Assembly (NCBI GenBank): GCA_016933215.1 | Contig: JAFGBH010000004.1 | Span: forward strand, 1 to 34,880 | Source: Deltaproteobacteria bacterium | GTDB taxonomy: Bacteria; Desulfobacterota; Syntrophia; Syntrophales; UBA2210 | Length of the DNA: 34,880 bases | Direction of reading: 5' to 3' | Shown here: positions 13,407 through 18,233 of the stretch, piece by piece | Position numbering within the stretch: position 1 is the stretch's first letter | Layout: each line of letters opens with the position of its first letter | The notes under the pieces: model-generated | What the model was told of the DNA's origin: nothing | What the model saw: only the letters and a program-made list of their open reading frames with translations | The model's database searches: none | Made by a program: the position numbers and the translations under genes

Positions 13407-15404
13407 ATGTCAATAAATGAGACCCCATCAAAAAAGGCGAGTGGTCATCCCGTTCTCCTTGGCACCATGCAGGCACGGAACAAGGTAGTAACAACAGAAG
13501 AGGCCATTCAACTTATAAATGATGGTGATACTATAGCAACCGGCGGCTTTGTCGGAATAGCTGTTGTCGAGGAAATTGCTGTCAAGATTGAAGAGCATTT
13601 TTTACGTAATCAAAGACCCAGAGATTTAACCCTCGTTTATGCTGCCGGTCAGGGAGATGGTGCGGAGAGAGGCTTGAACCACTTTGCCCATGAAGGTCTG
13701 TTACGAAGGGTTATAGGAGGTCACTGGGGTCTGGCACCAAAGCTGGGGAAAATGGCAATCGAAAACAAGATTATCGCCTATAACCTTCCCCAGGGTGTAA
13801 TATCTCATATGTTCAGGGATATAGCCGCCCATAGACCGCGAACCATTACAACAATAGGTTTAGGGACCTATGTCGACCCGCGACACGGGGGCGGGAAAAT
13901 AAATGATGCAACCACGGAAGATATTGTAGATCTGATCACTTTTGATGGTGTGGAGTATCTGGCATACAAACTCCTTCCAATAAATATAGCCCTTATCAGG
14001 GGTACGACTGCCGATTCAGAGGGCAACATTACTATGGAAAGAGAGGCGTTAACCATCGAAAACCTTGCTATTGCAATGGCCGCGAGAAATTCAGGCGGAT
14101 ATGTCATTGCCCAGGTTGAAAGGGTTGGCGAGAAGGGAACACTGAATTCCAGAGATGTGAAAATACCGGGTATTCTTGTCGATTGCGTCGTCGTTTCCAG
14201 ACCTGAAAACCATTGCCAGACCTTTGCGGAGGTTTATAATCCATCCTTCAGCGGCGAGGTAAAGATTCCATTACGATCAATGGCCCCGATGAAAATGGAT
14301 GCCAGAAAGATCATCGCACGGAGAGCTGCCTGTGAATTGGAGGCAAATGATATTGTAAACCTGGGAATCGGCATGCCCGAGGGCGTTGCCAATGTAGCCA
14401 ATGAGGAAAAAATTTCAAAGTATTTAACCCTGACTGCCGAGCCCGGCATCATTGGAGGTGTTCCTGCCGGGGGATTGAGCTTTGGGGCCGCAACAAACCC
14501 GGATTGCATCATAGACCAACCCTACCAGTTTGATTTCTATGATGGTGGCGGATTGGATATAACCTGCCTGGGAATGGCGCAGGCGGACAAGGACGGCAAT
14601 GTCAATGTCAGTAAGTTTGGGCCAAAGCTCGCCGGATGTGGGGGGTTCATCAATATCAGCCAGGCTGCGAAAAAGTGCATCTTTGTGGGCAACTTTACCG
14701 CGGGAGGATTGAAGGTTTCCGTAAGCGATCAGAAGCTCCACATAGAGCAGGAGGGCAAAACCAAGAAGTTTGTAAATCAGGTTGAACATATGACCTTTGG
14801 CGGAAAATACAGTGCCGAACAGGATCAATATGTACGGTATGTAACTGAACGATGCGTCTTCGCCTTGACCAGGGATGGATTGGAGCTTATCGAGATCGCC
14901 CCTGGCATTGATCTCGAGAAAGACATTCTTACCCTGATGGATTTTAAACCGGTTATAAAAGAACCACGTTTGATGGATGAACGGATATTCAATCCGGAAC
15001 AAATGGGCCTGGAACACGATCTTCTCAGCATACCCATGGATGAGCGCCTGACCTATTATCCCGAGGATAATATCTTCTTCGCAAACCTGGAAGGCTATCA
15101 TGTGAAAACAATCGAGCAGATACAAGAGATAGAGAATGCCGTGAGAAAAATTCTGGAACCAGTCGGTAAGAGGGTCTATACAATTGCCAACTATGACAAT
15201 TTCAATATCCTGCCGGACCTCATGGATGAGTATTCGGAGATGGTAAAGAGAGTCGTCGGGGATCTGTATGTCAACACGACGCGGTTTTCATCGAATGCCT
15301 TCGCACGGATGAAACTAACGGAAGCCCTCATGGAAAAGAAATTGATACCCCATATGTACGAGAGCAAAGAAGAAGCGCAAAAGGCGTTGAAATCTGAGGA
15401 ATAA
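13407..15404 (+). CDS. Propionate-CoA-transferase-type (class I) acyl-CoA transferase with C-terminal extension
   Basis: In this 665-residue protein the alpha and beta halves of class I CoA transferases are fused, as in Pct/YdiF. The alpha half is about 25-290 ([33 protein letters not shown]), and the beta half about 298-520. E345 in TAEPGIIGG is the expected catalytic Glu that forms the enzyme-CoA thioester. Reaction: transfer of CoA from one carboxylic-acid thioester to another. Pct proteins normally end near residue 520. Here about 140 further residues ([18 protein letters not shown] through [15 protein letters not shown]) form an extra domain of unknown role. GGAGG precedes the ATG. The gene lies between the MaoC and stress-protein genes. 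Confidence 0.9.
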
Positions 15405-16944: not shown

Positions 16945-16970
16945 CTATCTGGGGACATGTCTCCAGATAG
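16945..16970. promoter_or_regulatory. 26-bp near-perfect palindrome before the LuxR-type gene
   Basis: CTATCTGGGGACA (16945-16957) and TGTCTCCAGATAG (16958-16970) are reverse complements at 12 of 13 positions, with no spacer. It ends 48 bases before the ATG at 17019. It could be an operator for a dimeric regulator, possibly autoregulation, or a leader hairpin. Confidence 0.6.
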
Positions 16971-17018
16971 GGATGAAAGATTGATATTCCACAGCTTACT
17001 CTAATTAAGGAGATTCTT

Positions 17019-18233
17019 ATGGGAAAGAAAGGGAAGACCGAAAAAGACATGACGAGTGTGGTTATCATCGAAAAGGAAGGAACATTCCTGGAGCAGATCA
17101 AAGATGCAGTGGAGGGTGATCCCGGGTTGAAGATTATCGACGTGAGCGTTGACCTGCCGGGAGCGGCAGCTCTTATGAAAAAAATCAAAGAGGCACCCGA
17201 CGTGATCCTCGTTGGCTTTGACATCCTCAAAAAGGCGGCAGCCCGCGATGCCGGAACTCTTCTGAGGCTGAGAGAGAAAATGCCGGACACCAGGCTTATC
17301 GTCATGGTTGAGAGATATGCCGATGAAGAGATGTTCCGTATGATAAACGAGGGAATACGCGGCTTCTTCCTCAGGGGTACATCGCCAGGTCTTATCACAA
17401 AATGTATAAGGGTAGTGCAAGCCGGCGATATGTGGATAGAGAACGCCTTCGTTGCCAAGGTCTTTGAAGGGGTGTCGCGCCGTCATATGATGGAAAAAGG
17501 GCGAAAGGCCAAGGGACGCAAGATAAGGGTCGTCATTTTTGACGAGGACAGCGATTACGTGAAGAACCTGAAAAAAATCATAGGGGCAACTTCCGATATT
17601 GAGATCGCGGATGTGCGATGTGATATCAAGGGGACCACCGAGCTCATATTCAAAACAGAGGATCGGATCGATCTGATCCTCGTCAGCTTCAACATACTCA
17701 AAGATGTGGCAGCCTCGAACATGGAAACACTCATAAAGTTGAAGACAAAGCTGCCCGAAACCCGTCTGGTCGTCATGGGAGAGCGCTACGTGGAGGAAGA
17801 AATATTCCGCATGGTGAAGGAGGGAATACGGGGTTTCTTTGTCAAGAGTGATATTTCATCCGATTTCATAACAAAATGTGTGAGAGTCGTCGCGGCAGGA
17901 GAAATCTGGATGGGTGCGAAGCTCGTCGGAAGGGTGTTCGATGAATTCTCCCGCTACTACAGCGAGGCAGAGGGCGAACTCAGGTCGCCGTCGCCGGAAG
18001 ATATGGGCAAGCTGTCACTTCTCACGAAGAGAGAGCATGAACTGCTGGACCTTGTATCCAGAAGTCTCACGAACGAAGAGATAGCCGAACGCCTCTTCAT
18101 CAGTACAGAAACAGTAAAAACTCATGTACGAAACATATTTGAAAAGCTGGGTTCCAGAAACAGGGTGGAAGCCACCCTCCTCTATATAGGAGCGTCAGAC
18201 ATGCGGGAATTCAGCGTGCACGAGGCGCTCTGA
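17019..18233 (+). CDS. LuxR-type regulator with two tandem pseudo-receiver domains
   Basis: This 404-residue protein is laid out as receiver-like domain 1 (about 12-150), domain 2 (about 168-310) and a C-terminal LuxR/NarL helix-turn-helix (about 332-390: LTKREHELLDLVSRSLTNEEIAERLFIS, TVKTHVRNIFEKLGSRNR). The two receiver-like domains are clear internal duplicates (DTRLIVMVERYADEEMFRM versus ETRLVVMGERYVEEEIFRM; EGIRGFF in both). The phosphoacceptor Asp after beta-3 is G66 in domain 1 (VILVGFD) and S223 in domain 2 (LILVSFN). Domain 2 keeps the acidic cluster FDEDSD and K276. Activation by phosphorylation is therefore unlikely, and ligand binding or dimer control is inferred. A GGAG site precedes the ATG. 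No histidine kinase is adjacent. Confidence 0.9.
   Translation: MGKKGKTEKDMTSVVIIEKEGTFLEQIKDAVEGDPGLKIIDVSVDLPGAAALMKKIKEAPDVILVGFDILKKAAARDAGTLLRLREKMPDTRLIVMVERYADEEMFRMINEGIRGFFLRGTSPGLITKCIRVVQAGDMWIENAFVAKVFEGVSRRHMMEKGRKAKGRKIRVVIFDEDSDYVKNLKKIIGATSDIEIADVRCDIKGTTELIFKTEDRIDLILVSFNILKDVAASNMETLIKLKTKLPETRLVVMGERYVEEEIFRMVKEGIRGFFVKSDISSDFITKCVRVVAAGEIWMGAKLVGRVFDEFSRYYSEAEGELRSPSPEDMGKLSLLTKREHELLDLVSRSLTNEEIAERLFISTETVKTHVRNIFEKLGSRNRVEATLLYIGASDMREFSVHEAL

Follow-up and report, generated by a model that had tools for sequence, protein, structure and literature searches.

In regulators of the NarL type, dimerisation of the receivers is usually driven by phosphorylation. Related regulators with aspartate-less or pseudo-receiver domains (ALR/PsR) have the same receiver fold without the phosphoacceptor aspartate, with glycine (11%) and serine (15%) among the common replacements (PMC4395418, PMC12632262). 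In Streptomyces the atypical LuxR-type regulators BldM and WhiI form a heterodimer without phosphorylation (PMC4125116; PMC12632262), and in PleD, which consists of a receiver, a pseudo-receiver and a GGDEF domain, the pseudo-receiver is involved in dimerisation (PMC12632262). What switches pseudo-receivers in bacteria has yet to be settled (PMC12632262), and a literature search, judged by titles, returned nothing relevant on pseudo-receivers arranged in tandem with a LuxR domain. In this study we describe such an arrangement in a 34,880-nucleotide stretch of DNA from a deltaproteobacterium of the order Syntrophales (contig JAFGBH010000004.1, positions 1 to 34,880; the window). We find that the protein is a real, slightly unusual regulator and a natural fusion of two genes, known in its fused form from one assembly, which hints that its two receivers work as a pair controlled otherwise than by phosphorylation.

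The regulator, 404 amino acids in length, is encoded by a single open reading frame on the forward strand (17019-18233), with a ribosome-binding site, AAGGAG, 6 bases before its ATG (17007-17012, +); a search of its own genome returned an open frame of 418 residues at this place, free of stop codons inside. It consists of two homologous receiver domains, the N-terminal one at residues 12-156 (17052-17486, +) and the C-terminal one at 17523-17960 (+; profile match G000:C53:17523-17960), joined by a linker and followed by a GerE/LuxR-type helix-turn-helix at residues 334-387 (18018-18179, +). The helix-turn-helix, the C-terminal domain expected of the NarL/FixJ family, is matched strongly by Pfam (PF00196, E 6.4e-18) and has solved homologues in NarL, VraR and DosR. 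The two receivers share 43% identity across 144 amino acids (E 4e-43), so their kinship is not a matter of chance. The N-terminal receiver has diverged too far for Pfam to recognise, a search with the 404-residue protein giving no match to it, and the C-terminal receiver falls below the cut-off (26.3 against 30.2 bits, residues 171-277). Their fold is nevertheless recognisable, for the N copy by its identity to the C copy and for the C copy by an AlphaFold model of residues 158-404 (mean pLDDT 77), in which it has receiver topology and resembles solved receiver domains with a VIA Z of about 14-16 (for instance RcsB 6zil, VIA Z 15.6, rmsd 2.1, 133 aligned residues). The full-length model is poor (pLDDT 59, pTM 0.37); its secondary structure agrees, and the packing of the receivers is unreadable in it.

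Where the phosphoacceptor aspartate would be expected, the N-terminal receiver has Gly66 (codon 17214-17216, +) and the C-terminal receiver Ser223 (codon 17685-17687, +). The position of Gly66 follows from alignments to VraR/LiaR and to the receivers of its own genome, and that of Ser223 from a phmmer alignment to NarL (1a04); in the comparisons with NarL and VraR/LiaR, 'DLILVSFN' falls on 'DLILLDLN' and 'PDVILVGF' on 'PDVILMDL'. In the partial model Ser223 closes strand beta-3 (model residues 62-66), and in the low-confidence full-length model each of the two residues ends a beta-3 strand. A preliminary description of this DNA, made from its letters, had called the DNA-binding domain intact, the two receivers alike and both phosphoacceptor positions substituted by these same residues, and on all three points our results agree with it. 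As neither copy has the aspartate on which the N-terminal receiver of a NarL/FixJ regulator is phosphorylated, the protein is an offshoot of that family, not a canonical member.

A receiver profile (A1) searched in 155 genomes of the order sharply separates a small subfamily (E 1e-25 or better) from ordinary regulators, the next matches lying at 1e-14. The subfamily is present in 13 of these genomes, distributed over two families, and its named relatives belong to Syntrophales, Smithellaceae and unclassified Deltaproteobacteria; of 395 genomes sampled across the phylum, only G000 and G086 match the profile, both among those 13. The only member outside the order (L039) lies on a contig labelled Patescibacteria (RA.bin9), possibly misbinned. 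The window genome also has a single diverged receiver-LuxR paralogue with serine at the aspartate position, beside an M20-type gene (L002/L107). Beside the family of the window gene stands a sister group that includes Smithellaceae and in which one genome, G056, carries five paralogues (L096, L099, L100, L102 and L103), two of them on one contig.

Across these domains, aligned with the read-through row of L032 serving as anchor only, the active site has been lost in different ways. All 11 receiver domains of the fused regulator and its nearest relatives lack the aspartate (glycine in 5, serine in 6), while the 16 domains of the sister group have aspartate (12) or glutamate (4) at that position; the first residue of the acidic pair, conversely, is acidic in 11 of 11 domains of the window family as against 0 of 16 in the sister group. 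The active-site threonine is replaced by glycine, valine, aspartate or serine, mostly glycine, in the 27 complete domains, and in the fused regulator by valine and glycine in its two copies, the N copy having in addition lysine at the second acidic position and arginine at the conserved lysine. Because none of the 27 complete domains has the aspartate together with an acidic-pair residue, phosphotransfer looks to have been abandoned throughout the subfamily and the sister group. The tree requires one change in the first acidic residue and two in the aspartate, and the sister group suggests an order in which a receiver active site decays, with the threonine going early, then the aspartate in one lineage and the metal-binding acids in the other. 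Control without aspartate phosphorylation, as proposed in the preliminary description, is thus supported by the residues of the window family, in which the loss of the aspartate is conserved. It is not conserved in the sister group, where homologues retaining the aspartate, of the kind named there as evidence against the proposal, do occur; these 12 domains do not, however, rescue ordinary phosphotransfer, since they lack both the acidic metal-binding pair and the threonine. By published definitions the domains of the subfamily are pseudo-receivers, and the two in the window are aspartate-less receivers.

The genomic context of the nearest relatives bears on the origin of the tandem arrangement. 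In four of them, all of one family (G009, G018, G017 and G016; loci L032, L033, L034 and L008), the two halves are neighbouring genes, the first for a stand-alone receiver of 156-164 amino acids with glycine at the aspartate position and the second for a receiver-LuxR protein of 245-248 amino acids with serine. The pairs are located between a gene that we take to encode an M20-type peptidase-like protein and genes that we read as rsmA-like and tsaD-like. When the junction and linker of the window gene (17487-17522, +) are aligned at the DNA level with the intergenic region of these four relatives, the intergenic stretch, including the stop codon and the second ribosome site, is found to be missing, and the old start codon of the second gene remains as Met158 (17490-17492); with its ribosome site deleted, an internal translation start at Met158 is unlikely. 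In the tree the N copies, including the N half of the window gene as an orthologue of the stand-alone genes, form one group (support 100/99) and the C copies another (94/93), each window half adjoining its counterpart in G009. Since four relatives have the copies as separate genes and the tree unites copies of one kind across genomes instead of the two copies of one genome, the duplication preceded the divergence of these genera, and the fusion of adjacent genes came last. The internal duplication within one gene that the preliminary description had read from the shared motifs is thereby ruled out.

On its 5' side the window gene is flanked by DNA homologous to that before the N gene of G009, so the unit has kept its promoter region in spite of different neighbours. 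The insertion site is not datable by synteny or an empty site, the CoA-transferase being differently flanked in G016 and the VanZ neighbour having no close counterpart. The window CoA-transferase (13407-15404, +, 665 amino acids) is itself matched in G016 and G011 over about residues 1-550, its C-terminal ~115-125 amino acids being unmatched. Upstream of the regulator, at 16945-16970, lies the 26-bp near-perfect palindrome CTATCTGGGGACATGTCTCCAGATAG, which the preliminary description had named as a site at which to test binding and which is real, with 12 of 13 pairs matching; it is the sole such 26-mer in the window, and the rest of the genome holds no further copy, even with up to 3 mismatches allowed. 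A clearly degraded version stands at the homologous position in front of the receiver gene of G009, and no palindrome with a score of 8 or more precedes any of 24 other subfamily members, so that an operator conserved across the subfamily is rejected. Judged from sequence, the palindrome is a fair candidate for an operator in autoregulation.

Other members of the subfamily have neighbours of a different kind. An exported protein of ~200 amino acids is encoded within about 2.2 kb of a regulator paralogue at four subfamily loci (L107:474-1076 (-), L092:5645-6256, L098:4845-5468 and L102:6805-7473), none of them beside the window gene. The family has a signal-like start and the motifs LSDxE..GFSxFT and WDxDWT, and one member gives a very weak Pfam match to DUF6160, below cut-off. 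Strong copies (E below 1e-50) are found in 9 of the 155 genomes, and 6 of these 9 also carry regulators of the subfamily (Fisher p 7e-6, without correction for relatedness), which suggests that surface or envelope functions are targets of some subfamily members, these being paralogues and not the window gene. A protein of ~178 amino acids without a Pfam match also lies near the regulators in four sister-group loci (L093:4440-4952, L095:775-1308, L098:3103-3675 and L102:3047-3580), just upstream in three of the four.

When neighbouring genes fuse, this is classically taken as a hint that their products are coupled physically or functionally, and the reading towards which we lean, with modest confidence, is that of an orphan NarL/FixJ-type regulator whose pseudo-receivers carry out no phosphotransfer and whose partner receiver is tethered in cis, the two being paired as a built-in heterodimer. 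An ancestral receiver-LuxR gene already lacking the aspartate would have been duplicated in tandem; one copy would have lost its DNA-binding domain, or may never have had one, giving the stand-alone partner receiver; and in the window lineage the adjacent pair would have fused. The two pseudo-receivers would then pack together as a heterodimer presenting the LuxR domain, and phosphorylation-driven dimerisation would be replaced by a partner receiver supplied first in trans and then in cis. The LuxR domain would bind a palindrome such as that at 16945-16970, probably in its own promoter, and its activity might depend on how strongly it is expressed, on the binding of a ligand or on a partner; the analysis turned up no target, ligand or partner of the fused regulator. 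A stronger version is possible, though we would not bet on it: the stand-alone pseudo-receiver and the pseudo-receiver-LuxR protein would be an obligate heterodimer, a phosphorylation-free device with a dedicated adaptor receiver, of which the fusion would be the same machine in cis, in a subfamily whose sister lineages would each have lost the opposite half of the active site. Because this small subfamily includes the split form as well as the fused one, the idea can be tested directly: if the receivers pair, the fused gene should be able to stand in for the two separate ones.

The residues that remain in the old active site bear on a ligand-sensing alternative, in which one or both receivers would bind a small molecule in the emptied phosphorylation pocket, as in JadR1 or RedZ, the second receiver providing a second site. 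In place of the catalytic residues all domains retain an arginine at T+2, two residues past the lost threonine (28 of 28), and an aromatic residue at K-3 (28 of 28), so the site is not random, and ligand-bound pseudo-receivers are known (PMC12632262); no biosynthetic cluster, however, is recognisable in common beside subfamily members, and we regard this explanation as unlikely, if worth keeping in view. We give a smaller chance to the N-terminal receiver being a functionless passenger or the fusion an artefact of assembly or sequencing. The fused form is seen in one genome only, an assembly of 102 contigs that has no second strain beside it against which to check for a local assembly error, and four of four relatives have two genes; yet the junction is clean, in frame and in the middle of a contig, and dN/dS against G009 is 0.22 for the N half and 0.20 for the C half, so that both receivers are maintained by purifying selection, which argues against decay.

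A redox switch, with a disulphide formed by the alpha-5 cysteine of each receiver controlling dimerisation as in RitR or HP1021, seems to us improbable. The cysteine occurs in 27 of 28 domains, whereas canonical relatives mostly have alanine there (a tryptophan follows alpha-5 in 27 of 27), and cysteine-based redox control is documented in other pseudo-receivers (PMC12632262), but the known sites lie elsewhere, in the linker of RitR and the alpha1-beta2 loop of HP1021, and a residue that is serine in one member may be a mere part of the core. Residual phosphorylation, with Ser223 modified by a serine kinase, is very improbable, for although the C copy of the fused regulator retains both acidic residues (DD1=D, DD2=E) and the lysine, all N copies have glycine at the phosphoacceptor position, the C copies of G017 and G018 have not kept the acidic pair and the threonine is lost.

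Compared with known systems, the fused regulator with its tethered partner receiver finds its best sequence and fold matches in the NarL/FixJ (LuxR-type) regulators NarL, VraR/LiaR and DesR, with which it shares the receiver fold and the GerE domain; it differs from them in having two receivers without the phosphoacceptor aspartate, no active-site threonine and an insertion after beta-3. From the ALR/PsR regulators it differs in carrying two such domains in tandem on one LuxR domain, made by the fusion of adjacent genes. PleD, the closest documented precedent for a receiver and a pseudo-receiver in tandem, likewise has two tandem receiver-fold domains, one of them a pseudo-receiver, but the other is still a true receiver and its output is enzymatic. 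The nearest documented precedent for atypical LuxR-type regulators pairing without phosphorylation is BldM-WhiI. There the partners are separate proteins, each with a DNA-binding domain, whereas the partner receiver in the window has no DNA-binding domain of its own and is fused, its pairing being hinted at by the gene fusion alone.
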